The notes below the pieces were generated by a model. It saw only the letters and a list, made by a program, of their open reading frames with translations. It had not been told where the DNA came from and ran no database searches. A stretch of 64,000 bases of DNA from Arbacia lixula (Eukaryota > Echinodermata > Echinoidea > Arbacioida > Arbaciidae): NCBI GenBank assembly GCA_963669155.1, contig OZ022576.1, positions 3,949,822 through 4,013,821 of the forward strand, given 5' to 3'. Position numbers and translations under genes: made by a program. Each line of letters starts with the position of its first letter. Position 1 is the stretch's first letter. Positions 7,001-29,269 of this stretch are shown here, in pieces.

Positions 7001-7267
7001 TGCCAGGATGAAGATCCACCTGAATGTCCGGCGTAGGCCGAGGTCAAGGGTCAGGGATCGCTGACCGTAGGTGGCTATTGTTGTTTTATTGGCCGCTTGT
7101 AGTGTGAAAGGCGATGCGGACTTTCTGTCCTTCACTGCGGCGGGTATGACACTTACTGTAGCGCCAGTGTCCACCAAGAATTTGCTCATAGAAATATGGT
7201 CTCGAACGAAGAACAAGCGGCAGTTTGTCCCAGCGGGCAGTGCCGCATCTACTGGCTGGGTTTCCCG
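4079..7267 (-). CDS. Pol polyprotein (protease, reverse transcriptase, RNase H, integrase), read by -1 frameshift
   Basis: This frame gives about 1062 residues when counted from the first codon after the putative slip. In order it shows: protease with DTG at 33-35; reverse transcriptase with YIDD at 333-336 inside [11 protein letters not shown]; RNase H with acidic residues near 487, 528 and 553; integrase with zinc ligands H679, H683, C713, C716; and a catalytic triad D745, D804, E840 with the usual 35-residue D-E spacing. The tail [12 protein letters not shown] is like other Gypsy integrase ends. There is no chromodomain and no stop inside, so the protein looks intact. The frame opens about 30 bases upstream of the slip site and has no good ATG at its start, so it is probably made only as a Gag-Pol fusion. 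Its domain order and motifs are typical of Ty3/Gypsy elements. Confidence 0.95.
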
Positions 7268-8121: not shown

Positions 8122-8183
8122 GATGTGTATGAATGTGTAAAAGCAGTATTAGCTCAAATTACGATATAATTTATGTGTCGACC

Positions 8184-8202
8184 AATCACGTCGGGGTCAC
8201 CA
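8184..8202 (-). promoter_or_regulatory. Primer-binding site for tRNA-Trp
   Basis: The plus strand reads AATCACGTCGGGGTCACCA, the 3' end of animal tRNA-Trp including the added CCA. It lies one base from the 5' LTR. On the element strand the site is TGGTGACCCCGACGTGATT, so a tRNA-Trp would anneal to prime minus-strand synthesis. The match runs 19 bases and then stops, so this is a primer site and not a tRNA gene. Confidence 0.85.
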
Positions 8203-8203
8203 A

Positions 8204-10020
8204 TGTGGCGGTTTTGTACTATAGCCGGGTTATGACTATAATAAAAATGTGGTGTTAAATATGATGAAGTTAAGGTTTATAAACATCGGTTCATGCAGTA
8301 ATCCTAAAATCACTATCAATCGCACGTGAAACACCTCAAATCATCATTGCGTGCTCTCATCACATTTGCCAACATAAAAATAAAAACAATTACGATTGGT
8401 CAGACACTATACAAAACTTCGTTGTACACAAATGTACGGTTGAATGTGCGTTTAATTATATGTATTCAAATCTCTTGTGAAGTAATTCTCCTTCCGTGAA
8501 CACAATATATATGCATGTAATTTACTTATGGAAAATACCGATATACCTTTATCTTTGGTTGCTGTTTATTTATCAACAATATAATTAGGAAATAAATGGG
8601 TATTCGTATAGTTATAGTTCGTACTAATGGGTACGATGGTTTGTGTTGGTTTATCACGATAGTGTATCCATATGACAATAGCGATGCAAGTCAATAACTG
8701 TCGTGAATATCCAACGGTTAATATTCATCCGTTTACTGAGCTCTAGTAGATTTTGTAATCCACAAGCGTTTGTTTTTATAAACAATATGTTAAGCCTACT
8801 TGGGCTATAGAATTTATCTGTATTGCCTTATTATAAAGGCTGTGGTTATTTAACCTGCAATGAAATGTGCATCCATAAAAAGTGCAACTCGGTAACATGC
8901 ACGTCACGAGTGAGGTGCTAAAGTTGACACTAGATGGCGCTAATTTAAAATGATCCTTTATTTAGGAGGCTACCAATGTTTGGTGCGCGTAATTAGAACA
9001 TCAAATTACGCTCTTCATCGACCGGCGCAACTTGTTGCGGGTCGGGTATATATATACTGGAATTATTACATCAGCTGAATATTACCGAGGAAATACTCTC
9101 AAGGTAATTGATAAAATGATCCCCCTCTTATTTGGTTAATTTATACGCTGGCAATGTTGAACCAACAACAGCCATTAACTAACCAAAAAAAGGGTTGGAA
9201 TGAAATATTATATTTTTATCATAACATCAACCTTTAAGGGATGTTAATCGCTTTTGGTATTATAACGCAATGTAGCGTGTATGCGTCCTGGCTTTATTTA
9301 TTTGTAATTTAGCCGGACGTGCCGTGGCAATAATGGCTCACGATTTAATGATGTATTTAGATCTATTGGAGCAGCGGTTTATAAAGCTGGGCGACTGTGG
9401 ACGTTATTTGCATCAACACCTTATACGTACTTGTACATGTATGTCTAAATACCCTGGCTACAATTAGTCATGATATTGCTCCAAGAAAACATAACTGATG
9501 GTGGTTGAATTAATTCTTTACACGGTAATCATATAGAATTCTAAATAACTCAACATGAAATAACCAGAATTAATACACTACAGTCTTAATATTCTTACAG
9601 GTAAATGATACCTTAATTGGTATGAATAGGGAGGTTGAACTTTAGATAAGCTTATATATCTGCTTAGATGTGGGTTTATCCACAATAAGTATATAACCTC
9701 TACCTTTAACTTTCAAACATGAAACTTTATAAGTTAAGTAATATTATCATCAACACCTTCTTTACAGCAGTAAACTTGAGTTTAGTTTAGCTTTTGCTTA
9801 GCGGATGATTTATACAATTTATATCAATGACTTTGGGTCATTAAATGTTATACAGAACGGGCTCACCGGGAGTTCGATGCAGTAATATGCAAATCCGGAA
9901 TACCGCTGAAATGTCCTCTAGGAATTCATATCCGAGGTAGATTGCGAAATCGCTCGTAGTTGGTTCTCTAGCTCGGCTGATTCGCGGCGAGAATTTAGCG
10001 TGCACGCTGTTCGGGGAAGT
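8204..10020 (-). repeat. 5' LTR of the retrotransposon, inner part (1817 bp)
   Basis: This is identical in layout to 1102-2918 and differs at 8278 (T for G). It holds the putative TATA run (9047-9056) and the CTCF-like motif (8928-8942). It stops at AAGT, where the 18.2-kb DNA transposon begins, and continues at 28214. Confidence 0.95.
10019..10020. repeat. 2-bp target duplication GT of the DNA transposon, left copy
   Basis: The intact LTR reads GGGGAAGTGTCCC at 2911-2923. In the split LTR the left side ends AAGT and the right side resumes GTGTCCC at 28212, so GT is present twice. Two bases is a short duplication; TIR ends one base in or out would change it. Confidence 0.65.
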
Positions 10021-10955
10021 CCCAGCTAACAATTGGACGTTTTCTGAACGTTCTAAAAACGTTCCAAGTTGGTTCTATGGACGTTCTGTCAAAACGTTTA
10101 AAAAACGTCCTTTTGTGGAAGGTTTTGGACGTTAATAAAACGTTCCAAATGGACGTTTAGAAAACGTTTTTTAAACGTTTTAAAACGTTTAATAAACCTA
10201 AAATGAACCTTTCAAAATTATTAAGGACCTGTAGAAAACCTTTGGAACGTTATGGACGTTTAAAAACCTTTCAAAAATATTTTGAACATTCCGTGGACGT
10301 TCTGTAGACGTTCTGTGAACGTCCAGAAAACCTTTTAAAAACCTTTGGAACGTTTTAAAACGTTTTAAGAAAGTCCAAAAAACCTAATGAACCTTTCTGG
10401 AACGTTAAGAGAATCTTTTGCATCAGCCTAGGACGTTTATAAAACGTTTTAAGAACGTTTAGATAACCTTTAAAAAACGTATGGAACCTTCCAGGAACAT
10501 TCAGAGAACCTATCATAACCAAAAAGGACGCCCAGAAAACCTTACAAACGTTCTAAAGCAGTCCAAAAAACCTAATGAACCTTTCTAGAACGTTCAGAGA
10601 ACCTTTTCTATCAGCCTAGGACGTTTATAAAACGTTCTAAGAACGTTTAGATAACCTTTAAAAGACGTACGGAACCGTCCAGGAACGTTCACAGAACCTA
10701 GCAAAACTATAAAGGACGTCCAGAAAACCTGTAAAAAACATTTAGAACGTTCTAAAAACGTTTCGAGGAAGTCCAAAAAACCTAATGACCCTTTCTGGAA
10801 CGTTCAGAGAGCCTTTGATCACTGCCAAGAAAATGTTTTAAGAACGTTTAGATAACTTCCAAATAATGTATGGAACCTTTCAGGAACGTTCATGGAACAT
10901 GTCAAAACAAAGAGGACGGTTAGAAACCTTTCAAGGACGTCTAAATATATTCAAT
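10021..10955. repeat. Left terminal repeat and subterminal AACGTT array
   Basis: After CCCAGCTAACA, the DNA holds about 32 ACGTT words in 0.9 kb by eye count, often as AACGTT or AACGTTC. Near variants such as GGACGTCC and AACCTTT are mixed in. AACGTT is its own reverse complement, so it can serve both ends alike. Such arrays are binding sites for the element's own protein in CACTA transposons; here that role is inferred. Confidence 0.85.
10372..10950. repeat. Three tandem units of about 190-210 bp within the left array
   Basis: Units begin with AGTCCAAAAAACCTAATGA at 10372, 10560 and 10770 and carry the same order of AACGTT words. They differ at scattered positions. The right end has no such long units, so the left end has grown by local duplication. 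Confidence 0.8.
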
Positions 10956-10986
10956 AAACACTTTCAAAATGTTTTACTTGTGAAGG

Positions 10987-11340
10987 ATGTTGAGAGAACT
11001 TTTTAAAGATTTTCTTCTTTTTTTTTATTATTACTTTAATGTCCTGGAAAAGTTAAAAGAACAGGCAATGAATATTGTAATAACTATAAACAGTTTAAAG
11101 ATCATCCAACAAAGAGTATGCAACAATTATAATACAACGATGTCACATATATCATTGGTTTCACTATTTTATTATCAAACATACATAATGTATGTAAAAA
11201 GACTTGTTGATACAGAGCATTATATATCACAAAAATGAATGAATGTTAAAAAACACGTGTAAGAAAAGGTATTTTTCCGAATATACAGTAGTATCAAATA
11301 ACAAATACTTCTACTCATATTTAGCCATCTACTACAGTAT
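10987..11340. other. AT-rich spacer inside the transposon, no gene seen
   Basis: A short AT-rich open frame occurs at 10987-11238, but its composition is that of random AT-rich DNA and it resembles no protein I know. It lies between the subterminal array and the diverged tandem array. Confidence 0.4.
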
Positions 11341-11350
11341 CATATCAATG

Positions 11351-14300
11351 AATAATAGACAAGTTTAAGAATTTAGTACAGTCATGTATCAAAAACAATT
11401 TGGTACAACACATGAAAATACAATAAACTTGAGCGATATATAGAAACGGGAATTTCCCGAAGAAATACATGCATGCTGAGAATTCCATACAAGTATGCGT
11501 AAACTTGGGTAACAACAAATTGTGCAAAAAATAATTCACAAAGTGTATTTCTGCTCAGCGTAGTGTAGTGAATCTTCATAGGCAGATCAAGATTTGAGTT
11601 GGAACCAAGTCTTACCACAGCCAATGTTGGAGTTTGCAAATTAAATCGCAATAGAACTATGTGAAGTAGAAGATATATGTTAACAATTAATTGGCAAAGT
11701 TTGAATAGTCAACATTTTTTTGGTCAAGAATTTGGCAGCATATACATTGTGGCTTTGGTAAAATAAAAGTAGAAAATATACATATACATGTATGTTAATA
11801 AATAGCTGGCAAGTTTGAATAGTCTAAACTCACTGTCTATGAACAGAAAAAGCACATTTTTTTTCAAGAATTTGGCAGCACCTTCATTGTGGCTTTGGTA
11901 ACATAAAATACAATAAAAAGTAACTTTAGCAATTTAGATAACTTGAATCTTCCCTTCCTGAGATGTTTTTGGATTTCATACTAAAAGATTCACCAAGAAA
12001 AGAATACATGAAACATTACATTATTCATCCCCATTATTAAGTATTACACAAGAACAACAACAGAGTACATGTATGTAGGCAATGCTTTCGTAAAGGAGTC
12101 TTTGCTCGATATGATGAGATTTTGTTGCAAGGAAGCATGGTCATAAAACTTCATTATAATGAGAATGTATTGTTAGTTTTGTTACTTTAATCAACAAAAT
12201 ACTTTGTAGGCAGATTTACATTTGAGATAATTAGAGGTGAGTTTCATTGTAGCCAATCTGGACCTTTCAACACAAAATCATCACCTGTATACATTTTGAA
12301 ACACAAGAATAATCAACACAAAGTAATTAACAATAAAACTATGTACAAGTTGTATACTTATATATACATGTAGAGTGGGAGCTAGCCTTCATCCGAGTAG
12401 GTGAACGAGGTACCAGCAGCCGAGTATTCAAAAACATGAGAAAGAACCCCACATTTACCAAACTAAACGTCTGGCAGGTCATCTCTGCTGCATAAGGTCC
12501 CTACAGCCGGGGGTGTCCAAAATGAGTGCCGATTTCACAAAAATTTCTATTTTGAATAACAATAGCACATCACAATTTATTTTCTAAACGCACTGAGTTT
12601 GTTGAGTATTACATTGTCTTAACACTTGTACCATTTTGCAATCAGACTGAAATTGAAAAATAATGAAATCTTTCATGAATAGATGTTTTTTCTTCCTTTT
12701 ATCGTGAAATATATTTTTCTCCCCTTTTCAATAATTTTTAATAAATAGTTTTACAAAACATTGATGTTTGCAACTTTTTTTAATAACTACCTTAATGCAT
12801 GTGATTGATGGTGTGAAAAGAAGGGAGTAACATCTTATCCCGAAAAAGAATTATGATTCCCGAATGTTAGGAACGCAATATGGACAAATATCAACAATTT
12901 GTCCCGTAACGGAGGAGAACCACATACCGGCACATGTATTACGAAAGGCCGACACCATGCTATAGCTTCTAGCAGGAAAACAAAACCAGCGAAAACACGG
13001 CACAAGCCGGACAAATCTTCTCTATTTGGTTTGCCTGCTAAAAACTATCACAATTATTCGGCCTTTCGTAATACACGTGCCGTTCTTCTCTGTTACGGGA
13101 CAAATTGTTGATATTTGTCTTGTGTTCCTAACTTTTGGGAATCATAATTCTTCTTCGGGATAAGATGCTACTCTCTTCTTTTGACACCATCAATCACATG
13201 CATTAACATAGTTTTTAGAAAAGTTGCAAACATTAATGTTTTGTAAAACTATTTATTAATAATTATTGAAAAAGGAGAGAAAAATATATTTTGCGATGAA
13301 AGGAAGAAAAAAAACATCTCTTCATAAAAAATTTCACTATTTTTCGTTTTCAGTCTGATTGCAAAATATGGCACAAGTGTTAAGACAATGTAATACTCTT
13401 TACTCAAAATAGAAATTTTTGTAAAATGGGCACTCATTTTGGACGCCCCCAGCTGTAAGGACCTTTTGTAGCAGGGATGACCTGTCAGATGTTTAGTTTG
13501 GTAAATGTGGGGTTATTTCTCATGTTCTTGAATGCTCGGCTTCTGGTACCTCGTTCATCTACTCAGAAATGTCACAGCTGCCTCTCTAAAGGATGGAAAT
13601 AAATAGCTGGCAAGTTTGAATAGTCAAAACTCATTGATTATGAACAGAAAAAGCACATTTTTTTTGTCAAGAATTTGGCAGCTCCTTTATTGTGGCTTTG
13701 GTAACATAAAATACAATAAAAAGTAACTTAAGCGATTTAGATAACTTGAATCTTCCCTTCCTGAGATGTTTTTGGATTTCATACTAAAAGATTCACCAAG
13801 AGAAGAATACATGAAACATTACATTATTCATCCCCTTTATTAAGTATTACACAAGAACAACAACAGAGTACATGTATGTAGGCAATGCTTTCGTAAAGGA
13901 GTCTTTGCTCGATATGATGAGATTTGTTGCAAGAAAGCATGGTCATAAAACTTCATTATAATGAGAATGTATTGTTACTTTGATCAACAATAGACTTTGT
14001 AGGCAGATTTACATTTGAGATAATTGGAGGTGAGTTTTATCATAGCCAATCTGGACCTTGCAATACAAAATCATCACATGTATACATTTTGAAGCACAAG
14101 AATAATCAACAAAGTAATTTACAATAAAACTATGTACAAGTAGAAGATATACATGTACATGGAAGTTAATAAGTAACTCGCAAGTTTGAATGGTCAACTC
14201 TTTTTGTGCGAACAGAAAAGGCAGCATTTTGAATATATATCTGTTGTGAAGAATTTGGCAGCACATATACATGTATTGCATCATTGGAAACATCTCACAC

Positions 14301-14375
14301 AACAAAAACTTCAGCGATTTATAGAACCTGTAATTTCCATACCTGAGAAAATTTTTGGATTTCATATCTAAATGA
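11351..14375. repeat. Diverged tandem array, units of roughly 0.57 kb, interrupted by a foldback
   Basis: Recurring blocks share the order: a CAAGTTTGAATAGTC-like start, then AAGAATTTGGCAGCA, then TTGTGGCTTTGGTAA, then GATTTAGATAACTTGAATC. The two best copies are 11797-12375 and 13598-14160. Shorter or more diverged ones lie at 11351-11670, 11671-11796 and 14164-14375. The foldback at 12392-13567 separates the two best copies. No coding frame is shared by the units. Confidence 0.75.
12392..13567. mobile_element. 1.2-kb foldback (long inverted-repeat) element
   Basis: The left arm begins CCGAGTAGGTGAACGAGG and the right arm ends with its near reverse complement. Pairing continues inward through GGTAAATGTGGGG, AAAATGAGTGC, ACAAATTGTTGATATTTG and TACGAAAGGCC, down to a loop near 12990-13015. 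The arms are about 580 bp with scattered mismatches and small indels. No ORF with recognisable likeness is inside. It is probably a nonautonomous foldback of unknown superfamily; no target duplication was clear. Confidence 0.8.
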
Positions 14376-14646
14376 CACACCACCCATTAGTTTATAGTAA
14401 AGTGAAATCATATGATCTACTTTACTCATGTAACTCGGCAATTATGGTGGCAATTATCATTTATTACAAGTGAATATGCACTTTATGTCTATCACTTGCA
14501 CAACTTTTCAAATGAGAGTTCATGTATTAATTAATTTGTACACATAAAAAAAAGAAACAAATATCACATAAAGACTCATTTAAAGACAGCCTTCTAAATA
14601 CTGTTAAAAAAAAATGTACGTATGATCTTGAAATTGGAATGTATGT

Positions 14647-15694
14647 ACAGTTGGCAGCAACATTATTCTACCCCCCTTATTTTTGTCATTCTGTCATGAT
14701 GAATAATATTGCGACAACAGATTGCTACTGTACTAAACCATTTAGATAGTTTAGAAGACAGTTAATTACTAAAGAATACCAGAGAATACCAAAAAGCATG
14801 TTGCAAAAGTATTCAACCCCCTATTTTACACACAAGAAACAAATGCACAAATGATAATTTAAAAGCCAGTGCATATATTCTGAGGTGGAAGCTGATTTTA
14901 TTTATCCTCCACCTGAAACTGGAACCTTTATAAGCACAACAAAGAAGTTGTAATGTCATTCGACCCAGATGGGTGTGTCTTTTGTGTAGCATCCATTTGC
15001 TGCAATGACTTCGAGCAGAAGAGATGAATAGCCTCTCACAAGCTTCTCACAACGCTCCTTTGGGATGTTGGTCCATTCCTCTTGCGCACCTTAAGTGGCC
15101 ATCACAGTCTCCAGACCTAAACCCAATAGAGAATTTGTGGTGGGATCTGAAGAAAGCTGTTGCAGCATGTAGACCTACAAGCATCGCTTACCTTAAGACC
15201 ATTATGAGAGAGGAATGGGCCAAAATCCCAGAAGAACCTTGTGAGAAGCTTGTGAGAGCTAGGCCATTCATCTCGTCTGCAGGAGGGCTTTGCAGCAAAT
15301 GGATGCTGTACAAAGTATTAAAGACACACTCATCTGGGTTGAATGACATTACAATTTGTTAGTTGTGCATATAAAGGTTCCAGTTTCAGGTGGAGGATAA
15401 ATAAAATCAGCATTCACCTCAGAATATATTCACTGGCTTTTACATTGTCATTATTTGTGCATCCGTTTCTTGTGTGTAAAATAGGGGGTTGAATAATTTT
15501 GCAACATGCTTTTGGGGCGCAAATTACTATTTCAGGTGAGCTATGAAGTAAAATTTGATTTTTTTCTCTGGGATTCTTTAGTAATTAACTGTCTGCTATC
15601 TTAATGGTATAATAGCAATCTGCTGTTGCAATATTATTCATTATGACAGAATATCAAAAATGAGAGGGGGGTTGAACAATTTTGCTGCCAACTG
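14647..15694 (+). mobile_element. Tc1/mariner-derived foldback element, 1048 bp, flanked by TA
   Basis: The termini are CAGTTGGCAGCAA and its reverse complement, each next to TA (14645-14646 and 15695-15696), which is the Tc1/mariner target. The arms pair over roughly 440-490 bp, including CCTCCACCTGAAACTGGAACC and the CACAAGCTTCTCACAA region. The centre and right arm carry the end of a Tc1 transposase. The left arm is an inverted copy of the same 3' part, so the 5' half of the gene is missing. It is nonautonomous. Confidence 0.85.
15085..15310 (+). pseudogene. Tc1-like transposase, C-terminal fragment
   Basis: The frame reads WPSQSPDLNPIENLWWDLKK, the signature around the last catalytic acidic residue of Tc1 transposases. 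A tail like WAKIPEEPCEKLVRA follows. The N-terminal DNA-binding part and the first two catalytic aspartates are absent. The fragment is enclosed in the foldback at 14647-15694 and cannot act by itself. Confidence 0.85.
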
Positions 15695-15741
15695 TATACC
15701 TTAATCAGGCAATACCGGTAGCCTAGAAAACGATATAGCAG

Positions 15742-18700
15742 TTAATCCTTCATATCCTCAACATCATCGTTGCCCTCAATGTGATCATTGCTGACATCTA
15801 GAACAGGGACAGTTGGAACTTTCTGCAAAACAATTAGAGTAATCAAGAAATATTTAAAATTTACTTGGTGCCTATTTCCAAAATCAGGCATATGAGAGGG
15901 GTGTAAAATAAAAGGCCAATCTAAAGCACACAAAATCACATACATGTAAGGCACTCGTCACATGTAACCCGTAAGAAAAAAAAAAAACCCATATAGAAAA
16001 AACGTGTTGACTTTCCCATTTGTTTTCATTTGTTTTCTTTTTCTTTTTTTTTCTTTTTTTTTTGGGGGGGGGGGGGGTGAAGTACATGTAGTTGCTTCAC
16101 ATATAAGACCTTTCTAAATGTAATAGTAATTCTACAATCCCAGATCTGTCATTCAGGCAAGAAATCTTAAATGAAAAATGACGAGTTCGTTTCCCCGAAT
16201 TTGACCCTCCGATGACTGTTATTAAATCTGGGACTTACCATGCCGGAAGAGAGAAGACAATATCCTAGTCAGCATTTTGCATGCAGAGTGTCAGAACATT
16301 AGATTCTGTGTTCATTTTGTGATTTTCTGTTGTTTTGCACCTTCATTTTGAGAAAATTAATATAGCACTTTTTTATAATCTTACACAAAAGTAATTATTT
16401 AATTGGATTCACAGTCTTGTGGTTTTAGTTCGACTGAATAGCATTTTTCTCTTATAGCGTGAAAACAGCACTTACCTTGTGCTTATTCCCACCGGGAAGA
16501 AATGGGGTACGCTTCACATAGTCACCAATCGCTTCCTCCACCTCAGGTTCAGTGGTACCCTCATGGTTTTTCATGCAGGCTCCTAAGGACAAATGTGCAA
16601 ATCCCATGTAACATTACATTAAGATTAGAGTAGAAGTTTGGCAAACCTCCAAATATAATCTTCCAAAAGGATGTGTATAATATACAAATCACTTTTTTGT
16701 AATATAAAAAATCAAAACAAATTTTTGAGCATAGATAGGGAGAAATATTTCATGATATCTTACTTACTAGCTCTCTGACAATGCAAAATCTAATAAGTTG
16801 TCATTCAAAGGCCAATTAACAGGGAACAAAATGTGTCTGCTAATAAAGGGTAAAGAGCTGCTCAAGTTCCTTTATATTTGTTTTTATGGTCATGACAGTT
16901 CGTTAAGCTAGATAAAAGTAGTTGTATCAACGCTTTAGTATCTAAACCGCCAGACATGCTATAGTCAAGATAGTATCAAAAATATGTGATGAAACATCCC
17001 CATACTTGTTGTGGATAAACTATTGGATGTGTGCTGTCCAAATTCTGCACAAAAAGTATGTATTGAGAGCAATACTTATTGAAAAAATCTGATCGATACA
17101 CAGCATAGCCTTTTCCGCAAGTGAGTAAACAGATACTTTTCACGCAGACTCTAGGTGCTAAAGGGTTAATCACTGAATCTTAACACTCACTGACGATGAC
17201 TGGGAAAAACTTGGTCGACTTGAGGGACCTTTTTCCTTTCCTTCCCAGGATGTTGAACTCAGACCAAAGTTGATTGGTCCCCAACTTCTGCATGATCCTT
17301 CTCCCAGTTTGCGATAGCTTACTCCCGCCAACCAGACTCAAGAAAGTTATCTGAAAAATATAAGAAGCCTTGTGAATTACAATGTTGCAGAATTTCCTCC
17401 AAATAAATGAGTTACACCTCTCTTTCATACACAGTACAATGGGGGTTCTTTCAAGATAAAACTTTTCTCTGATGCAGTAAATATTTCCTGACCTATTTAA
17501 AAGATGCACACTTCAAATATATATCACACCAAAACATTACTATATCAGTTAAGGACCTAGGATTTAAAGTGTACCCTGGTCATTGCATTACTTCAAGATT
17601 CTGCATTTACTGCATAGTGCACTACATCTATTTCCTGAGGATCATTTCAACTGGTTGCCTATTAAGCAAACACAATTCAGCTAATCATTATTCCACATAT
17701 GTATATCCTACTGGGTATTCATTCTGAAACTTGAAGTGTGTCATAAGTAAAGATAAAATGCCCTCCTCAAGGTACTGAAATATCAAGATAAAAACCACTT
17801 GGATCAGGCCTCCTACCCCAAAAACAGCCCCCCTTGACATTTTTCGCGATAAATTTGTAACGCGAGAAGATCACGCCGCAACATTTCATGACTTTTTCAC
17901 TTCAAGTCTCACGCAACTTTTAAGACCAAATTTGCGACACGGGGATACACGGTTCCGAAGTTGCGTAACATTTTGTACGTGCATGTCAGACCAAAAATTG
18001 CTCAAAAACGTGATTTCATGTACAAAACTAATGCAAATTCTGTATCTAGCCATAATTCATAAAAGTATCATTATTTTTATTTTTACTGATGAAAAACAAT
18101 AGATTTCATGTTATTTATGACTGAAATAATGTTGCCAATGATTTTCATCGAAAAAAACAATGAAAAACATAAGAAATTCAAAAAACAATAAAATACATAA
18201 GAAAAATTAGATATTGCCATTTTTTAAAATCCTAATTTGATAATAATCCTAAGAAGAGTGTCTGGACTGAAATCTAGCAGTTTTGGGGGTAAATTTAAAG
18301 ATTTACAACCAAATTGTGATTTTATGCATTTAATTAGCATAATTAATTAATTAAAAATAAATTTGAATAATTTTGATGCAATTGACAGTTGAATTGTGGA
18401 GACTACGTCTTCGGTGACGTACGTGCCAATTTTCGTCGCGATCGCGTGATCAACGGTCGAGATCTTAGGGGGGGGGTGGCTGTTTTTGCCCCCCCCCCCC
18501 CCCCCCCCCCCATCCCGGGCTATGCGATTTCAAAATAGCCCGGGCTATATAGGGTTAAATTAAGAAATTGGAAATTATTGTGACTTTTATCTTTTAACAT
18601 GGTTATAAATTAATCAAGGCATGCATCACTTTGAAACTCAGGTTACTTTGTGTATTCCAACTGTAGAAAATGCACATGATTATTCATCTTGTAAAACTTA

Positions 18701-21700
18701 CCATACGACTCTTAAATTCAGCGTCATTTAGCCTCCCTTCCAGCACCTTGAAGTCTTCAATGGTATTCAAAGGTTCACTGAAAGGCTCGCACAAATCAGC
18801 AGAGTCCATGGAGGAAGGTTTGGGCTTCTCCCCCATAGCATTTATTGCTGCCATGATCCTTCTTTGTCCCTCCTCCAGTGCCTGCAGCTTGAGCAGAACT
18901 TGTGTCTGGAAGTCTGGTCAACAACAAAAATGAAAAAAAAAAAGAATAAAATAAATAAATAAATAAATAGCAAGCAAATAAAATGAAAAACAAACAAATG
19001 GGTACACTATTTAGGTCACTAAAAGGCTTTCAGTGCAAACAATGCCATATTCCACATTAATATAGCAGTTGTTCAATGTTATCATTTCAGGAGTGCCATA
19101 ACACCTCTGACAAGTACATTTAAGTGGACAAAGCGCCAACAACCGTAAAAAAAAAAATAATTCAAATACCCTTTTTTTTTTTTGGGGGGGGGGGGGGGGT
19201 TATTAACCTTCATCACATTATGTAAGTGATGGGTCGTACAATAAAAAATGGGAAAACTTTGTCATCAACTCCCATTTGCACAAAATTACCCATAAATGTT
19301 CCATCTAACTCCTGTTCCATCTTAGATAGTGGAGGCCCCTATTTTTTTTTTAATCAATAACAAATTTTAACAAAATCACAGATCATATTTGTAAAATTCT
19401 TTGTGAAAACACTTACATGTACTCTCTGGACGGGACTTTGGGCTGGTGACTGGGGTTCTAACCGTAGACTCGGACTGCAGAGGGGTAATGATGGGGAGGG
19501 ATGGTCCAGGAACATCACGCCAACTGGGTTTTTTTAATAGGGGCATAGCCAGCTCCTTAGGCTTCCCCTGGGTCTTTCGTGGGCTTCGCCTGACAGGTTC
19601 TGGTGTGTCTGACTCCATATCTAGAAAACATCATGAATAATATTAAACAAGACTTGATCATTAAAGACAGCCCGTCCCTTTTTCAGATCATCACAAAACC
19701 ATCGAAACATTGGCAAAACATATAGAGAAGTGTTAGCAAGTTGTATATTCATAATTTGAAACTGATACGTAGTGTAAAATTCAAACAATGCATGTAAACA
19801 ACGTCTCATTAATAGTCTTTACCTCAGGCTCTTAGCAGTTTGTGTTGAAATATTTGCTTTATTGATTCATCTGTTTGTGAAATTATAAAACGCATTATGG
19901 AAGAAATTGTTCTATAGAAGGAATCATCTCCAAAGTTTGGTAATTACTCATAAAAGTAGGATTTCACACATGCATAATAACCACATAGATACTGTAACAA
20001 AGACTAATACTTTTTTCGCAGTACGAAAAAAGTCGGTTTGAAATTTAACGGCTGAAATTTTTACATATACAGAAAGCTTCAACATGCTATATTCTTAGAA
20101 ATGGTCTTGAATCACACTTTCTTTAATTTACGATTGTGATACACGATTTCAAATTTTAAGCTTGCAAAAGGGACGGACAATCTTTAAGCTACATGAATGA
20201 GCCTGTCTTAAGTATTTATATATGCCTGTAACAGGGCCCTGCAGCAAAATAATAACTCTTCCAATTTTGCCATAAATGTACCAATCATCATTTTCTGGCG
20301 CAAACAGAAAACCTAAATTATTTAATCAGTGAGCACAAAGCCTACATGCATGGCATGAATGATTGTGGTGTTTACGTTCAGGAATCAAAATGAATAACAA
20401 AGCTCAGAACAACACAAGAAACAGATAATATGTATGCTCGTCCACATCCAGCACATGAGAGCACCCTGGCCTTATATGCTCTCTTTCCAAATGTTGGCCA
20501 TGTATCATATGGAATTCGGCCTTCAGCAGTGATGCCAACAGAAATACTTCTGAAGATCAGGATCTTAAACTTACCATCATCTGAAGAGCTGAACCTAGAT
20601 GGAGCTTGCCTCTTCCTGGGCCTTTCTTCATCAGACTCTACATTTGACGTTTCCTCTGCCTTCTTGGCAATATTCCTTGCCTTCTCATAGTTATCTGTAA
20701 ACATAATTCATCTTGGTATGAATTCCTGATGGTATACATGTGCAAATGTATATCAGCCATTTCATTAAGAAATTGTGTGATAATATTAAGAAAGATCTGT
20801 GTACCAATACAACAGAAAATACATGTAAAATAAACCAAACAGAAAATTTGTCTCACTTTTCTTTGATTTTGCCTTTTCCAAACAAGAATTAACTGCAACG
20901 GTGATGAGTAAATGTTTGTGTACAATTGTGTGCATGCCTGCATGCAGTGTTGTCATTGTGCAAAATGAAATTTGAAGAAGAGTTTTGAACTTTAAAAGAT
21001 TATATACTTTGGCATAGGGTGTCATTTTTTTTACTAGCTGGTATACATTTTAAATAATGGTTTTGCAGTTATTTTTGGGAGTAAACCAGAGTCAAACAAA
21101 CATGCCAAGAAAGGCAATAAAAAGTTCAAAATTATGTATTACATTGTACCATTTTTTTATCCAACATTTTACATCAGAGGCATCTGGCAAAAACAGTATT
21201 GAAACAGTAATTGAAAGTATTGAGACTTCACAAATAGCTTCAAGTTAAACAAAAAATAATTTGTGAAGGGTTCAGCTCTCATATTTTTGCAAGCTACACG
21301 AAGTTACTGAATCCCTTAAAATAAACCTATTCACATAGAGGTGGGGTAAGATTCATTTGAGTACATGTATACAAGTGCAAAATACTAACCCGTTACACGG
21401 AGTAAACGTATCTCATGCTTTCCCCACGTCTGCGTATCTGGGATCTCATGTTTCTTTGCCTTAGTGGACTGCCTGTGTCCAGGCCAGTAGCAGTACGCCG
21501 CCTAGATTAAAACAAAAAGTCAGCCACAAGCATGACTTACTGAAAAACAAAACAAATTACAAATTCTGAAATGGCTATATAGCATTATAAAAAATCCTAG
21601 GTGTATTGTGTATATAAATCTACCATATTTGAAACTTAAAATGTAACAAATGCAACGTTTGAAGTTTCAATAGTAAATTTCATTTAATCAGCGTTTTATG

Positions 21701-21870
21701 ACCCCTAAATGAAATCGGGTGAATCAGAAAAGGGGGGGGGGGGGGGGGAGAATACATGTACTTGTAAATTGTTGACTTACATTTGAATCTCCATCATTCT
21801 CCAGCCACAAGGTAGAGACCAGTGCAACTGTGTTCTCATCTTTGAATAACACTACAGCATAGTCCTTCAT
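15742..21870 (-). CDS. DUF4806-domain protein, second gene of the DNA transposon (eight exons)
   Basis: Exons on the minus strand are 21781-21870, 21390-21501, 20575-20694, 19417-19620, 18702-18913, 17191-17350, 16476-16582 and 15742-15822. Every junction is GT-AG and all phases fit, giving 361 residues and a TAA. Residues 1-67 (AVVLFKDENTVALVSTLWL, then CYWPG) match the N-terminal region of invertebrate DUF4806 proteins. Residues 68-107 hold an EKARNIAKKAEETS helix and a basic KRQAPSR patch; 108-175 are proline- and basic-rich (RRSPRKTQGK). About 223-332 is DUF4806 itself, with GGSKLSQTGRRIMQKLGTNQ and LGRKGKRSLKST followed by an EEAIGDYVKRTP helix; the tail is acidic. An AG directly precedes the ATG, so a leader exon may splice there. 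Its molecular role is unknown. Given the AACGTT arrays, DNA binding by this protein is a reasonable guess. Confidence 0.85.
17817..18505. repeat. C-rich repeat with inverted ends in an intron of the DUF4806 gene
   Basis: The left end has CCCCAAAAACAGCCCCCC and the right end has GGGGGGGGTGGCTGTTTTTG, roughly its reverse complement. A 25-base C run follows at 18487-18511. The interior is AT-rich and noncoding. It may be a miniature transposon; no target duplication was identified. Confidence 0.4.
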
Positions 21871-22211
21871 CTGTAAATTACAAAACAAACAAGATCAATA
21901 ACTGTTTCTTACATGTAACTCAAAAAAGTGTGTGCATTGCATCTTCGTATACACCCATTGAGGAAAACTATTACATACATACATTGTGTACAGCACAGGT
22001 AAAGAATATCATTTTATAATATGTGATGTGACACTAATGGAGTTGGTAGATTGTAATAGGAGCAACATTTGTACAGGGAATAATTTTCCTTGTATTGCAT
22101 AGCTATTTGCTCTGCAATATTGCTTAACAAAATCAATTTTTGTTTTACATGTACATAGGACCGACTGCACATACTCTGTCGGAAACAAAAAAAAAATTAC
22201 CATTAATTCTA

Positions 22212-24221
22212 TCAGCAATGCAACAAAGCCATAAAGATGAATGTATTCCTGTTGACTTCAACCTTAAGAGCTTTCTTCTTTAGGGATCGGTGTGGGACCA
22301 TCCGCATGCTGGCATTGCGTTTGCTGACCTTGTGGACACCAATTACTTTAGAATCACAAGGTGTTGTGAATGCACTTTCACTGTTGGTGTAGACCCTACA
22401 AAGGAAAAGTTTGTCATCAACTTCGCTGGTTTCATTAGTTTCCTCTTCGACCTCACAGCATGAAGATTCATTGAGGACATAGCAATTATCAGGTTTCTTT
22501 GTAGATACAGCTGAGGTCTTCGGTTGGGTTGGTGCGCTTCGAAACTGTTCAACTTCACAAAGTCTCTTGATAATCTGGACAATGGGTCTTTTGCCAGATC
22601 TCACCAGTTTTTTCATGTACTGCAGGTAATTTTCAAAAGGGAATGCAGCACAAGTGTTGAGGTCTCCAAATGCACGGGCTTCATCTGCCAAATGGATCAT
22701 ACTGTGGACATTGTATACAAGAAATTCCTGGCCATACAATGCACCTCCCTGATCATTGAAGAAAACCAGGAGATCTTCTGCAAAGGCATGGTACTCTGCA
22801 GCAAGTTCTCGGTTCACCAGCAGGCATGTACCAACACTAAGGGCCATGAACAGGTTGTATGAGACTGGCGTCAATACTCCTTTAAGGCAAATTTTACCAG
22901 TATAAAGGAGAAATTGACGCAGCTCTGTTGCCTTCCATCTGTCAATATCACAAAGGTGACGTGGCTTTCGCTGGAAATCACTTGTTATGGAGTCTCTCAA
23001 ACCAAGAAGCTTCTCACTGATGACACCAACTTGCACTGAACTCAATTTGAAATTTAGTAGTCTCCCTTTTCCTCTCATCCATATCAGAATCAACTTTTTC
23101 ATGACACCAAGGCAGGATTGGTGCATATAGTCCAATGGGAAACATTTGACCATATCTATTGGCAGCTGGCAAAGCGGCGATTCAGTGTTATGATGCTCGG
23201 GATACTCTTGTGCCCGAAATGACTCATCCGTTCTTTTTTGAACATTACTAGTCTGTGGGTAGGTCATCCTCCCCTTCCACTCTCCACGCTGAGTACACTT
23301 GTCGCATCCATAGTACCCTGAATACAACTTGGTACCCTTCACCATGGCCTTAGCAGGAGCGTCACACACAATGCACTTTAGGTTGACTTGGATTTCTTTT
23401 CCATCCATGACGAGGCCGTGTGTCAATATACCACCTAGATCTCTGACTGTATCATTGAGAAAATCCAGATTTTGGGGCTTTGAAGAGCCATATGTCAATG
23501 CTATTGGAAAAACATGCACAGGTATAGCATTAGTTATTGAGCAAAGAACTGGCCACAAGCTTTTAGAGGTGTCCTTATGAAGGGGAATTCCATCAATGTT
23601 CATAGCAAGATGGATAATGTTGGTATCTTCCATGTTCCTTTTACATGTCTTATATGCCTTAGACAATTGTTCACGAAATCCCAGGTACACATATTCCATG
23701 CCTGATGAAATGTCAGTCTGAACAGTTTTAGGAGTTTGGAGAAGTGTTCGGGCAGTGGCTGGTAAATCTGGGTGTCCATGTCCTTGTAAGGTTTTTAGGA
23801 GACCATCAACTGCATTATGTTTGACTTGGTAGTCATTCACCCATTTTGCCAACTCATTTCGTAAGTTGACAGGCGGCTCTGCATCCAAATGATCTGAATC
23901 ATTTCCATATTCTGAATCTGATGATAAAACAGGATCTACAGGTACATGAGCATTATCAGAGTCAGAAGATACCGGGGAATCAGCATTCAAATCGGTCCAA
24001 CTATCGCCAGAGTCCTCATCGTTAACGGGAATGGGGTCGTTGATTGCGACTTCCCCATCTGGTTCAGAACGAAGACCTTCGGCATCTTCTAAAAGAGCTT
24101 CTACCTGTATGACATCCCTACTACTGCTAGTTTCATCATCAGGTCTGTTCTTTTGCAATAAACGACGAGCACCCATCCATCTTCTATTGTAATCTTTCTT
24201 CCCTGACCACGATGAACTCAT
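22212..24221 (-). CDS. TNP2-like transposase (CACTA/EnSpm-related), intact
   Basis: This is a single uninterrupted frame of 669 residues. The N-terminal 120 residues are acidic and serine-rich. The catalytic region begins near 200, with D210 in MNIDGIPL and D287 in CDAPAKAM. A zinc-like YYGCDKC (C306, C309) follows, then FPLDYMHQSCLGVMKKL at 361-377, then FPFENYLQYMKKLVRSG with E530. This order matches plant and animal Transposase_21/DUF4218 proteins; D210, D287 and E530 are my candidates for the DDE triad. The end, FIFMALLHC, is like other animal members, so the protein looks complete. A splice acceptor (TTTAG) lies 12 bases before the ATG, suggesting a noncoding leader exon upstream. The protein should cut the element at its CCCAGC ends. 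Confidence 0.9.
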   Translation of the reverse strand: MSSSWSGKKDYNRRWMGARRLLQKNRPDDETSSSRDVIQVEALLEDAEGLRSEPDGEVAINDPIPVNDEDSGDSWTDLNADSPVSSDSDNAHVPVDPVLSSDSEYGNDSDHLDAEPPVNLRNELAKWVNDYQVKHNAVDGLLKTLQGHGHPDLPATARTLLQTPKTVQTDISSGMEYVYLGFREQLSKAYKTCKRNMEDTNIIHLAMNIDGIPLHKDTSKSLWPVLCSITNAIPVHVFPIALTYGSSKPQNLDFLNDTVRDLGGILTHGLVMDGKEIQVNLKCIVCDAPAKAMVKGTKLYSGYYGCDKCTQRGEWKGRMTYPQTSNVQKRTDESFRAQEYPEHHNTESPLCQLPIDMVKCFPLDYMHQSCLGVMKKLILIWMRGKGRLLNFKLSSVQVGVISEKLLGLRDSITSDFQRKPRHLCDIDRWKATELRQFLLYTGKICLKGVLTPVSYNLFMALSVGTCLLVNRELAAEYHAFAEDLLVFFNDQGGALYGQEFLVYNVHSMIHLADEARAFGDLNTCAAFPFENYLQYMKKLVRSGKRPIVQIIKRLCEVEQFRSAPTQPKTSAVSTKKPDNCYVLNESSCCEVEEETNETSEVDDKLFLCRVYTNSESAFTTPCDSKVIGVHKVSKRNASMRMVPHRSLKKKALKVEVNRNTFIFMALLHC

Positions 24222-24426
24222 GTTGCAACAGATCTAAACATGGACATAAAAGGTTACATTAAGTATGGTTTGTTTTTACCAGGTCTAGGAAATACTAAAA
24301 ATGAAATGAATAAATGAATAATATTGATTCTGGTAGATTTTGATACTTGTCATTAAATACGTTTGCCTGTATGAAGGGGGAAGGAGGGGGGGTTCAAAAT
24401 CTTATATACACAACGTAATCAAAAAA

Positions 24427-25526
24427 TATATATCATACCTGCCAACTTTTGCTCAAGAAAATTAGGAATCTATTTCGCGTTACCTTAGGGCTCTATCGCT
24501 ATCCGCGCGCGCACAGCGCGCGAGGGGGAAGGTGGGTGTGCCCACCTAGGTACAGATTTTTACAATTTTTTAAGTTGAAATGAGGCAATTTCTATCATTT
24601 TCTTTACACATGTCAATCAAAATAAAACCTACATGTACATGTAAATACCTTGGTTTGATGCCTAAAAATGATGGCAGTCCTACTGCTGGCTGCTGAGTGC
24701 TGGAGCCTGCCAAACCCACACTGGCCACAGCAGTCATGGCAGTAGCCCGCTCAATTTGCTTTCTCTAAAACCTCAATCGAATGGTGAACAGTATGACAGG
24801 GTGTCTATGTGTGCAGAAGTTTGAGATTGGACTGGTTTTATTCCTTAACTCACTGAGAGATTGATGCTTTGTTTAATTCTGAAATCGACAGAACAAATAA
24901 TACGTTGTCATGGTTGTGCTCACCAAGTTTGGATGAAGAAACTAATCTGGGTCTGGGACTGGGTACCGACTGTATTCCTTTCTAAACTTTTATGCAAGAA
25001 CCTTCTTCTCTTTCCCTGATTTGCTCATGTTGCTGTCTTTCTCAGTTATAATCCACTCGGTCCGGTTTCCGGCGTTCCAAACTCACGTTAGAGGCATGTA
25101 TACGATCATGCAGTCCCACTCATAATCATTGGCGTTTGTTTTGATTATCACAAGCTAGATGTCTGCGGTGTTCCACGCATAGCACATGCCAGGTCCTCGC
25201 TAACATTGTATGATATGCGATGCAATGATTCTGCTGCAAAAACCATGCTGTATACGGTTCGCAGACCCACGTAGTTCTATTTCTATCGGCGTAAATATAT
25301 GTGCATACATGTGGAGCAGCGCAACACACTATAATCGCAGCGGAGGTCGCGATTTTTTTTTTCACCACTAAAATATGTTGTTGACCTAGTTGTAGCTCAA
25401 GCCATTTTCAGTAATTTTTTTTTCAAAATTCGGAATATTCAGAGTACAATTTGCAATTCCGAATCAGGATGGAAAAATCAGAATAATTTCACCCAAATCG
25501 GAATAGTTGGCAAGTATGATATATAT
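24427..25526. mobile_element. 1.1-kb inverted-terminal element upstream of the transposase
   Basis: The left end reads ATATATCATACCTGCCAAC and the right end carries its reverse complement with one change (GTTGGCAAGTATGATATAT). TA-rich bases flank both ends, so a TA or TATA target is possible. No transposase-like frame is inside, so it is nonautonomous. It sits in the putative leader intron of the transposase gene. I do not recognise the family. Confidence 0.6.
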
Positions 25527-25978
25527 CAGTGCACTGAGAACATTGGTCAACTCGTCAAAAATGGGTTCCAGCAATAATACGTAGATCTGGCCTACATATG
25601 TACTTTAAATTAAAAGTTAGTGTAGCTCATCAACTCTGCCAGTTCCCCCTTAAAAAATGCTCATCTGGGCGAACAGTGCAATTAAATCATTTTGACGAAA
25701 ATTTATCAATTTCTTCACAACGAACTATTGTCCATAGACTGTGTACAACGGATAGACCGTCCGCGCACAGCGATTCGGAGACCGCTGATTGGGCAATCGC
25801 GCAGATCACGTCATGACCACGTGGTTGCCTTCCGACTGCGTGTGGAAGTATCGATAGCGATAACGATATCCGGTCACATTGTGTACGCAGGAAATGGTCT
25901 TGGTTCGTGATCGGATCGCTCCAGTATCGATCGAAATTATCGAAACTCTGCAATTTCATGCATATTGACTGACGGTCC

Positions 25979-26275
25979 TAAAACCTGGAAGCCAATTGAC
26001 TTTGTACACGTTGCGATAGATTCTACAAATTCCAACAAACACGATGCGGGGGTGACGCTAATTCGTTCGATTTTCACGGAAAAGCAAGAAGCAATCGAAA
26101 TTCGCTTACCTGTGCGGTATCGGTGAGAAAATAGAACCTCTGAGAATACCTTTCAAAATTCATATAAAATATAGGAAAGTGAAATTCTAGGTCGATTTTG
26201 GTACGAGGTGATAGAGAATTTTACACTTGTTTTGGTGGAATACTGTGTGGGGACATAGAAGGCTTGCACTGCGCA
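25979..26275 (-). repeat. Dispersed repeat with a splice-donor-like site, copy 1
   Basis: About 300 bases match 45390-45690 in the same orientation, with many substitutions and a few indels. Both copies keep AAGCAAGAAG, then CTTACCTGTGCGGTATCGGTGAG, which on the minus strand is GCACAG|GTAAG. In this element it could be an alternative leader exon for the transposon genes. The other copy lies in host DNA. Confidence 0.6.
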
Positions 26276-26289
26276 TGCTTACTAATTAA

Positions 26290-27290
26290 CTTACTATATT
26301 TTCATTCATAAATTGGCTCTCGGCAGTGGCTGGATGACGTCATGTAATAAGCAAAAATGGACACGACCGCTAGCGACCACGCTCCGCTATCCGTTGTACA
26401 CGATTGTTCGTTGTGTTCTTCATCTTACTGTCACTCGTTCGACCATTTGGATAAAATCGGATGAACCCGAATGATAGTTAATGCATGTGTCATTACTTTT
26501 CATGTAGGTTGTTAACAAAAAATAATATTTTGTTGATTAAACCTTTTCATCTTGACTTGTTAAAAGTTTGCAATCACCATTGTCTCCATTTTTCAATGAG
26601 GGTCGACTGTGCCGTTGGCCGATTCCTCCGGACCAGCACAACTGCCACACCCTGTTACACGTGTACATGTACTGTTTTATGCTGAGAGTGTTTTATGCTG
26701 AAGTCAGAAGAAGTCAACGTCGGGTCAAAATCAATATTAAACATGTTAAAATTCCATTTGAATTTAACTGGTCACATCAATTCTTATCTAGGCCTATTCC
26801 ATTTCTTGATAATATAGTTTGAAAAAATATTTCCGATCTTGAATTACCTGAATTTTGAGAAATAAGACATTTTGCAGGAGGCATCGTGACAAAAAATGTT
26901 GTTAATTGCTCGCCTGTAACAATATAATAGTTAAGTAGATCTAGGCCTAGTTCTCTTTGACTTTGACATGACGTTGAACACAGCTCAGGCAGATTATGCT
27001 CTAAAAATCCCTTCAAGTGATAAAAAAATCAGAACATTTTCATTATGAATTAGTATATAGAAGACAGAAAAATGTAAAAATGAAGTTATTATTAATTAAT
27101 GGAATTTTAATATTGATTTCTATCCGATGTTGACAACACTCAACAAGATCAAGACAACACATGCTCGATCACGAGCTCAATGTCAATGTCTGGCCCTGTC
27201 TGGACCATTTTCATTTAATAGTTTGAATGCCTCAGAATCACTCAAAAAGACGGTTAACGCCTTTCAAATTTCATAATAAAACAAAATTAC
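26290..27290. other. Putative leader intron of the transposase gene, no gene seen
   Basis: Between the leader-exon donor at 27294 and the transposase acceptor at 24234, this part holds only AT-rich DNA and short frames. Nothing coding could be supported. Confidence 0.4.
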
Positions 27291-27294
27291 TTAC

Positions 27295-27690
27295 CTTGAT
27301 GTTACTGTCTGATAGGTAGAATCAAGATGGCTTGAGGATATGATGTATTGGTAGAAAAAGCTTGATATTGCATGAAAGCACGTGGCATCGATTCGAGAAA
27401 ATTTTCAGCTACTACAAACTCGTACTCCACGTGCGATCGCAATCGCGTCATCGCGAGCGCGCGAGCGTACGTTGCCTGCATACTATAGAGTGTATCACCA
27501 AAATACCAACAACAACAACAACAATACGTGCCCGTATAATGCATGCTGCATTGTTCGGGAGTACGTACGTACGTACGAGTCGCCGCTATCGATCGCGCTG
27601 CGCGGTGTTGTTGTTGTTTATCATTGTTTCTTTTTCTCGGGAAACGCGATGATTTCAGTGCAGTGGCGATCAAGAATAATCAATGCCTCA
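27295..27690 (-). promoter_or_regulatory. Putative leader exon and promoter region of the transposon genes
   Basis: On the minus strand ...AACATCAAG is followed by GTAAGT (27294 to 27289), a consensus donor, and there is no long reading frame upstream. The region behind it (about 27420-27610) is rich in CG-containing words such as CGATCGC and GCGCGC, unlike the AT-rich surroundings, as expected near a start of transcription. Which acceptor it joins is unknown; both gene starts downstream carry one just before their ATG. Confidence 0.45.
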
Positions 27691-27904
27691 AGTATAATTC
27701 TCATAACTTATATTAAAATTACTATCATAATTCATATTTGTGCACATAATCATTCTTGTATCTTTGCAGAAGAATGTGCTGATTATCTGTTCTTGTTTTT
27801 TATTTAAATATTGGGGAAAAATAATGATTCGAGGCCTTAATATCTTACATATTATAAGAGGATAAGAAGAGTGTTATTTGTTCATATTATATAAAAATTG
27901 ACAT

Positions 27905-28211
27905 TTTCAACATGTTGAAAAACGTTCAACAAAATAGGTCTGTGGAAAACGTTCTGAGAACGTTCTGAAAACGTTTCATACAGAACGTTTGATTTTGTAA
28001 CTTCCGAAAACGTTTTATAAATGTTCTGTAAAGGACGTTCCATTTTGTAACGTCCATGGACGTTATTAAAACGTTTGGAAAAAACCTTAAATTTTAAGTT
28101 CTTACTACAACGTTATATAAACGTTTTAAAAACGTCCATTTTGGACGAAGGACGTACGGACCTGTACAAAACGTTTTAAAAACGTTCTGAGAACGTTGTG
28201 TGTTTGCTGGG
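27905..28211. repeat. Right terminal repeat and subterminal AACGTT array
   Basis: About 14 ACGTT words lie within 0.3 kb by eye count, including AACGTTCTGAGAACGTT twice. The element ends GTTTGCTGGG, the reverse complement of the CCCAGC end. It is three times shorter than the left array and lacks its long tandem units. Confidence 0.85.
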
Positions 28212-28213
28212 GT
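28212..28213. repeat. 2-bp target duplication GT of the DNA transposon, right copy
   Basis: This is the second copy of GT, between the GCTGGG end and the resumed LTR at 28214. It pairs with 10019-10020. Confidence 0.65.
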
Positions 28214-29269
28214 GTCCCTTGTAGTCCGCGATAGGTGACGCGATCGAACGGTGACGCGAGATGTAATCTAAAGAGTTTGCGACAAGTTGAACGGGCTTAA
28301 TTGCTGAAGAAGATCAGGAAAACCTTACTTGTCCTTGGCTTGCGATGCATTACAATAATGCAATAATTGTTTGATGCATGGGACTCTTGTCATTAGCTGA
28401 CGTCCGCTGGGATGTGTATCGACCTTTGTACGGCGTCTTGCAATATAATTGTGTCCCTGCAGTGGTTAGACCAGATCTAGGTCCAGGTCTAGTTGATGAC
28501 GCTCTTAGCGTAGTGCTGTGATTTTAGCGAGAAGTTGAGGCGACAACCCTGGCTGTAATAGTGTCCAAATATCACTTTGTACGGGTTGTACGTTAGGCTG
28601 GATGTCACGCTGATAATGTAAATTGTTCGCTGTAAATTCACAGTTTAGATGCAGTAGCTGCATATATATTCTGACAGTCCAATTAGTTGAGTTTCTGCCG
28701 TAAAATATCGCTCAGTTTGGCTTTGCAAATTTCACTGTCTCGTATATAAAATACATTGACATTTGCTCGGTCGCGGAGCGAAGTTGAAACGTGTGTTGAC
28801 TCGACGCTATCTTCGTGCGGAGTTTTTTGTTAACAAAAATGGCTGAACATCGCGAATCCGTATGGAAATTGCGAAATATAGACGCGATCGGCTCTCGTGC
28901 TGATTCGCTAACGAAACGCGTACTAATACATATTCATTACTAAATTAACATATTTACACTTGATTGGTTAGAAGTACTACGCTTACGCTAACACGTCAGA
29001 ATATATACATACATGAATATATTAGCATACGTTATAAACTGAAAACGTAAACACCTGTCTAGACATGCTAATGGACGGGTTTACTGATATTTACAAACTG
29101 ATATGCCAGTGATACAATATGGAACATACAAGGCAATCTTATGTGAAGTGTGCGTTGCCTAATAATGATTTACAATGAATGAGTAATTTACAGGCAACAT
29201 TTCGTTCATGTTCATGACATTTTAAAGAAAGAATCTAATTAAATGACATAATATAACCAACATGCTACA
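28214..29269 (-). repeat. 5' LTR of the retrotransposon, outer part (1056 bp)
   Basis: This matches 2919-3974 and completes the interrupted 5' LTR. On the element strand it is the outermost part of U3, now 18 kb from the TATA run. It ends GCTACA and is followed by the ACAT duplication. Confidence 0.95.

Follow-up and report, generated by a model that had tools for sequence, protein, structure and literature searches.

A recently mobile 18-kb transposon of Arbacia lixula that pairs a TNP2-like transposase frame with a DUF4806 gene

Why would a transposon carry a DUF4806 gene beside its transposase? The question is raised by a 64,000-nucleotide stretch of the Arbacia lixula genome (GCA_963669155.1, contig OZ022576.1, positions 3,949,822 to 4,013,821; hereafter the window), in which an 18.2-kb element splits the second long terminal repeat (LTR) of a Gypsy retrotransposon and carries both genes on its minus strand. 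In plant CACTA elements, the accessory protein TNPA binds subterminal repeats and both proteins are needed (PMC2613891; published work is cited throughout from the parts of each paper available to us). We favour, at a probability of roughly 0.68, the reading of the Arbacia element as a cut-and-paste transposon of En/Spm-like design that was recently active and is potentially autonomous, with the DUF4806 protein as a helper that binds its ends.

Exact ends and six full copies

The limits of the element can be read from its host. Its two flanks, brought together around one copy of GT, are found letter for letter at 2819 in the retrotransposon's first LTR, which fixes both ends and the 2-bp duplication exactly:

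10021..28211, minus strand: whole transposon, 18,191 bp, set by the exact empty site in the partner LTR and by five further full copies; both genes on the minus strand
10019..10020, no strand: left target-site duplication GT, from the partner-LTR empty site
28212..28213, no strand: right target-site duplication GT, from the partner-LTR empty site
10021..10031, plus strand: left terminal inverted repeat (TIR), CCCAGCTAACA
28201..28211, minus strand: right TIR, CCCAGCAAACA, read inverted

The termini read CCCAGC...GCTGGG, within an extended end motif CCCAGC(T/A)AACA. The two TIRs are alike at 10 of their 11 outermost bases and diverge further inward. The original prediction had named these exact ends, the CCCAGC termini and the GT duplication, and the partner LTR bears out all three; a chance reading of the ends is ruled out by the empty site together with the six copies described below.

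The host retrotransposon lies on the minus strand, with its first LTR at 1099-3974 and its second at 8201-10020 plus 28212-29269; its internal frames are gag-like (7249-8148, with DUF7041) and pol (4079-7297, with reverse transcriptase, RNase H and integrase). The two LTRs agree at 99.89% over 1,820 bp and at 100% over 1,058 bp, about two differences in 2,876 bases. By this measure the retrotransposon is a very young insertion, and a jump into an LTR so little diverged is a sign of the element's own youth.

We then looked for the right end across the genome (606,990,701 bases in 590 contigs), scoring 40 of 84 candidates, so that all counts are lower bounds. The right end matches at or near 100% in at least six places, the window and five others, and the five others, fetched and aligned end to end, are all full length. 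By substitutions the six copies are 99.7-99.98% identical, with 3-46 differences per pair over ~18 kb, and the outer 14 bases at each end are the same in all six. They sit in different flanks, with 2-bp duplications of GT, AT, AA, TT, AT and AT. Two are ~250 bp shorter, through gaps between the transposase and the right end. In all six, both the transposase frame and the DUF4806 coding sequence are open, the latter with all 14 splice dinucleotides; a full copy without the DUF4806 gene, set beforehand as an observation that refutes the pairing, was not among the six found. The empty site and the near-identical copies establish a real, recently mobile DNA transposon.

At three of the six insertion sites (copies A, D and E; L049, L050, L055-L058), ACCAT precedes the element and ATG follows it, giving a target ACCATG, and five of the six duplications are purely A/T. 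A target preference is possible from this small sample.

AACGTT arrays with an 11-bp step near both ends

Inside each end lies a dense array of AACGTT, whose core ACGT recurs at regular steps:

10021..11020, no strand: left subterminal array, 23 AACGTT and 38 ACGT; commonest spacing 11 bp (13 of 37); a 95/188-bp duplicated unit lies inside
27880..28211, no strand: right subterminal array, 12 AACGTT and 17 ACGT; commonest spacing 11 bp (7 of 16)

Counted over the left 1,030 bp and the right 361 bp, these 23 and 12 sites compare with one in the inner 16.8 kb and 12 in the 45.8 kb outside the element, as the original prediction of subterminal AACGTT arrays had it. In 1,000 first-order Markov sequences, the left 1 kb held a mean of 1.6 sites (maximum 8) and the right 311 bp a mean of 1.5 (maximum 5). 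Spacing is as unusual as number. Across both arrays, 28 of 53 neighbouring ACGT spacings fall at 10-12 or 20-23 bp, against 12.3 +/- 2.9 at random, a figure that none of 5,000 placements reached; the excess lies at 11 and 22 bp. In the right array alone, the 7 of 16 spacings of exactly 11 bp were reached by 1 of 20,000 random placements. The 11-bp spacing is a new observation of the present analysis. It recurs at both ends as if bound proteins were to line up on one face of the helix.

The same pattern appears at diverged ends elsewhere in the genome. The right-end search gave at least 41 matches, the six full copies and 35 others, of which 24 were examined as loci (L025-L048). CCCAG stands at or near the expected place in 20 of the 24. 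Per 300 bp, AACGTT averages 7.0 inside these ends and 0.08 immediately outside; of 259 spacings between neighbouring ACGT sites, 81 are of exactly 11 bp. Together with the Markov and random-placement controls, the related ends rule out chance as the source of the arrays. A search of viral_contigs for a TIR-plus-array pattern returned 13 stretches with 0-1 AACGTT per 500 bp each, which we set aside as chance.

Three of the diverged loci (L028, L030 and L044) have an opposite end 977-1,131 bp away, with the same 2-bp duplication on both sides and AACGTT at both ends, and are short non-autonomous relatives. No transposase was found in the 24 loci with their 1.5-kb flanks. No second autonomous family turned up among the related ends, a result with no genome-wide transposase protein search behind it.

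A transposase frame and a spliced DUF4806 gene under one putative promoter

Two genes had been predicted on the minus strand, and both are there, downstream of a candidate promoter near the right end:

27295..27680, minus strand: putative promoter with a putative non-coding leader exon; CpG observed/expected is 1.72 here and 0.67 over the whole element; the 5′ limit is arbitrary
22212..24233, minus strand: TNP2-like (CMC-type) transposase frame, 673 residues; first ATG at 24221, acceptor-like TTTAG directly before 24233
21781..21870, minus strand: DUF4806 coding exon 1, its ATG directly after an acceptor
21390..21501, minus strand: DUF4806 coding exon 2
20575..20694, minus strand: DUF4806 coding exon 3
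19417..19620, minus strand: DUF4806 coding exon 4
18702..18913, minus strand: DUF4806 coding exon 5, where the domain starts
17191..17350, minus strand: DUF4806 coding exon 6, with most of the remaining domain
16476..16582, minus strand: DUF4806 coding exon 7, ending at a donor

The 673-residue frame holds D214, D291, C(2)C at 310-313, H(3)H at 510 and E534, in the D, D, C(2)C, H(3-4)H, E order described for CMC transposases (PMC12730594). Its sole Pfam match is DUF4218 (E 1e-5), over residues 499-551, a span that includes both the H(3)H at 510-514 and E534. With DUF4218 alone in the Pfam result, the frame shows no transposase domain of the P-element, Tc1, Harbinger or hAT type. A single-sequence fold reached a mean pLDDT (predicted local distance difference test) of 34.5, and sequence searches of the PDB gave either no match or matches only at E 1 or worse. 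No relative was found in viral_contigs, genome_contigs or phages, which are viral and prokaryotic collections and so weakly informative here.

The DUF4806 gene consists of seven GT-AG coding exons (21870-16476, minus strand) with matching phases, which together encode 335 residues in frame; the exons were picked by hand, with the family already known. The spliced protein matches PF16064 (DUF4806) at 33.9 bits (cut-off 25, E 4.1e-8). The frame of exon 5 by itself scores 15 bits, and exons 5 and 6 joined score 35.4. DUF4806 has been described as a subtype of the BEN DNA-binding domain, with Pan et al. 2023 as the source (PMC11075544); no BEN profile was listed for the 335-residue protein at E up to 10, and a search of viral_contigs, again weakly informative as a viral collection, found no relative.

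The arrangement of the two genes is that of a known system. The predicted leader runs into a strong donor, AAG/GTAAGT, with its GT starting at 27294; 12 bp separate the transposase ATG from its acceptor-like site; and the DUF4806 gene follows downstream, co-oriented, with its ATG immediately past an acceptor. In maize En/Spm, the tnpD frame likewise lies inside intron 1 (PMC2613891), just as the transposase frame here lies within the would-be first intron. That the DUF4806 protein is the counterpart of the plant accessory factor, as originally proposed, fits this layout and the reported BEN subtype, with binding to DNA as its prediction.

We picture the following scheme. A single CpG-rich promoter near the right end, with its donor at 27294, would give rise to two products by alternative splicing, one with the leader joined to the transposase frame in the would-be intron 1, the other with the leader spliced onward to the DUF4806 exons. 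The transposase would cut at the CCCAGC ends and insert at a 2-bp target. Near both ends the DUF4806 protein would coat the AACGTT sites, many of which follow each other at 11 bp, or about one helical turn; it would help to pair the ends for excision and, like TnpA, would regulate the nearby promoter. The shared promoter with its splicing, the catalytic competence of the transposase and the binding of DUF4806 to AACGTT are the steps that we infer.

An 81% repeat joins part of the transposon's leader region (25961-26267) to a stretch outside the element (45370-45682). We read it as a nested short repeat, and a small gap overlaps its start in two of the six copies.

Two foldbacks inside the element

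Between DUF4806 exon 7 and the left array, the element holds two foldback insertions:

12392..13567, no strand: foldback insertion inside the element, common to all six copies
14646..15696, no strand: foldback insertion common to all six copies, carrying a remnant of DDE_3 at 27.4 bits against a cut-off of 28.6

The second we read as Tc1-like. Neither is a later insertion unique to the window copy; as both are in all six copies, the mobile unit is the full 18 kb. Direct repeats at 11797-12370 and 13598-14161, 92% alike, flank the first foldback, with diverged copies at 14135-14382, as if the sequence around a nested insertion had been duplicated.

Place among known transposons

The most likely place for the element is among the animal TRC elements of the CACTA/EnSpm (CMC) superfamily. 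TRC elements were described in 2006 as relatives of CACTA in animals and fungi. Among them, TIRs are known for three animal elements, all with CCC ends and 2-bp duplications (for S. mansoni, in 7 of the 14 copies analysed); LTR retrotransposons house some of the S. mansoni copies, and the S. mansoni element has its transposase and a second reading frame in tandem, alternatively spliced (PMC1636069). The Arbacia element has CCC-starting TIRs at exact ends in six copies and a 2-bp duplication in all six, with an empty site for one. With TRC elements (SmTRC1, Aedes CCCAGTCAAC, Tribolium), it shares CCC TIRs, 2-bp duplications, insertion into an LTR and a tandem second reading frame with alternative splicing, the last being predicted here. 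It is longer, at 18.2 kb against 4.5-9.2 kb. Further, judged against the available account of TRC, three features set it apart: a Pfam result without Transposase_21, a second gene recognisable as DUF4806, and dense AACGTT arrays with 11-bp steps.

A second likeness comes from Hydra. Spongebob_HMa / EnSpm-4N1_HM begins CCCAGCCAACA, has the TIR CCCAGCCAACATTGAC and 2-bp duplications, and is filed under TRC/CACTA (PMC4298943); 10 of the first 11 bases of that TIR match both ends here. Its consensus is 5.8 kb, its authors did not pinpoint the transposase on account of stops and frameshifts, and the available parts of the paper mention neither a second gene nor an AACGTT array. With CCC ends and 2-bp duplications already published for TRC and Hydra elements (PMC1636069, 2006; PMC4298943), the distinct lineage that the original prediction drew from the non-CACTA ends and 2-bp duplication was already known.

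The likeness to plant elements is one of design. En/Spm, Tam1 and Tgmt* are long, with subterminal repeats, a TNP2-type frame in intron 1 (En/Spm) and a second, spliced DNA-binding protein; Tgmt* has CACTA ends and a 3-bp duplication, where the Arbacia element has CCCAGC ends and a 2-bp one. The accessory proteins TNPA and TNP1 share little sequence and are not named as DUF4806 in the available text (PMC2613891). The Arbacia element is not itself a member of the plant type, which is ruled out by its CCCAGC ends and 2-bp duplication. Plant CACTA elements generally have CACTA ends and duplicate 3 bp.

DUF4806 beyond the element

Do animal TRC/EnSpm elements as a rule carry DUF4806 as their second gene, so that the scatter of such genes follows these transposons? 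We regard this as possible and hold it tentatively. DUF4806 domains number 69 and 54 in two Hydra species and 0-6 in five other cnidarians, and in Hydra the CMC elements rank among the largest components of the repeats (PMC7642931). Hydra is also home to Spongebob/EnSpm-4N1, a family with CCCAGC ends for which 441 copies are listed (PMC4298943). A beetle gene set is enriched for DUF4806 (PMC13270666). Against such a general pairing, the evidence comes from one species' genome, and the parts of SmTRC1 proteins outside Transposase_21 are reported to have no detectable conservation (PMC1636069). In the available parts of the zebrafish, mosquito, beetle and Hydra papers that name it, DUF4806 figures as a gene domain with no transposon link stated, and a partial literature search found none. 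DUF4806 as the second gene of such a transposon is new, as far as that search reached.

The other DUF4806 loci of Arbacia also count against it. A profile search of the genome gave at least five exon-level hits, in two clusters, C2 with three and C7 with two; the window's own gene was missed because introns split its domain, so this count too is a lower bound. Each match contains one or two in-frame TAG codons, and some may be broken or cross an intron. Seven stretches of 3.2-7.9 kb were read around the two clusters (L014-L018, L059 and L060), one of them with 2.5 kb of N; exact CCCAG..AACA ends are absent from all seven, and each locus holds 0-3 AACGTT. The original claim that scattered DUF4806 genes belong to transposons is not demonstrated. 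It had named DUF4806 genes always in conserved synteny, without nearby transposon ends, as its refutation, and the two clusters lean that way in the stretches read, in a comparison that covered ends and AACGTT.

Cluster C2 (L059, L015-L017) is a tandem cluster of DUF4806-like exons on a stretch that is partly a run of N. About 250 bp upstream of its DUF4806-like frames, which were matched by eye to frames of L017, and on the same strand, lies a PF21787 RNase H domain (E 8.9e-28), which we take to be a P-element-like transposase fragment. C7 (L014, L018, L060) is a second cluster of duplicated DUF4806 exons. The clusters could represent host genes, relics, or genes carried by another transposon.

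Helper, passenger or repressor

Several results weigh against a DUF4806 end-binding helper in an autonomous En/Spm-like element. First, the transposase is only distantly recognisable: Transposase_21 is absent from its Pfam listing at E up to 10, its DUF4218 score falls just below the curated cut-off (25.8 bits against 27), and a loose D-D-C(2)C-H(3-4)H-E pattern also occurs in 313 of 5,000 shuffles of the protein, which leaves the motif order as supporting evidence that is weak alone. Ends in the wider CMC group are mostly CA..TG (PMC12730594), as opposed to CC..GG here. Second, the gene models are incomplete, in that the leader exon is predicted from sequence alone and a final DUF4806 exon with a stop was not found in the element sequence. 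Third, the phasing carries caveats. The left array is partly a 188-bp duplication, so its spacings are not all independent; the diverged ends were picked out by their resemblance to the right array, and shared ancestry accounts for part of their site content and spacing; and after 11 bp they most often show a spacing of 14 bp (30 of 259), with 25 bp common among pairs, neither of which is a helical repeat. Fourth, all six diverged ends read ~3-12 kb inward have neither gene, tblastn (E up to 10) giving only three hits at E 4.6 or worse; we have taken these as non-autonomous relatives. Finally, the variable codons across the six copies (four synonymous and three non-synonymous in the transposase, one and two in DUF4806) are too few to demonstrate selection on DUF4806, and variable columns per kb number 3.5 in the transposase, 3.0 in the DUF4806 exons and 3.0-5.1 elsewhere. 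The six young copies show that the genes travel together, which falls short of DUF4806 being required.

An ancestral element might instead have picked up a host DUF4806 gene by chance and carried it passively, with no role in transposition. We think this unlikely. The C2 and C7 clusters, without such ends in the stretches read, mean that a host source may be at hand; the two foldbacks likewise ride in all six copies; and the copies, being so young, count as one capture event. Yet the gene occupies the accessory position of CACTA elements, downstream and co-oriented with its ATG directly after an acceptor, it is unbroken with splice dinucleotides intact in six of six copies, and its domain is of a reported DNA-binding subtype in an element with dense arrays of sites. 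It is similarly improbable that the protein is a repressor or chromatin factor that silences its own promoter through the right array, outside the cutting complex: that array does lie within ~0.6-0.9 kb upstream of the putative leader donor, but arrays stand at both ends with more AACGTT at the promoter-distal one (23 against 12), as for end-pairing sites, and the three short relatives keep AACGTT at both of theirs.

Implications

With a helper that binds the ends as our preferred reading, DUF4806, a domain of unknown function, gains a testable role, the binding of palindromic sites at the ends of a recently mobile element. The very young copies with open genes commend the element for laboratory work on an animal CACTA system. 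A wider proposal, that animal CACTA-type transposons carry a dedicated DUF4806/BEN end-binder reading helically phased AACGTT palindromes, that much of both the expansion and the scatter of DUF4806 genes in animals is cargo of transposons or its domesticated progeny, and that some BEN-type transcription factors may be derived from end-binding proteins of transposons, seems to us doubtful at present. If the pairing is general, it would explain the jumps in DUF4806 count between related animals, it would give the CACTA superfamily a new type of accessory DNA-binding protein, and it would point to a source of animal BEN-type regulators.

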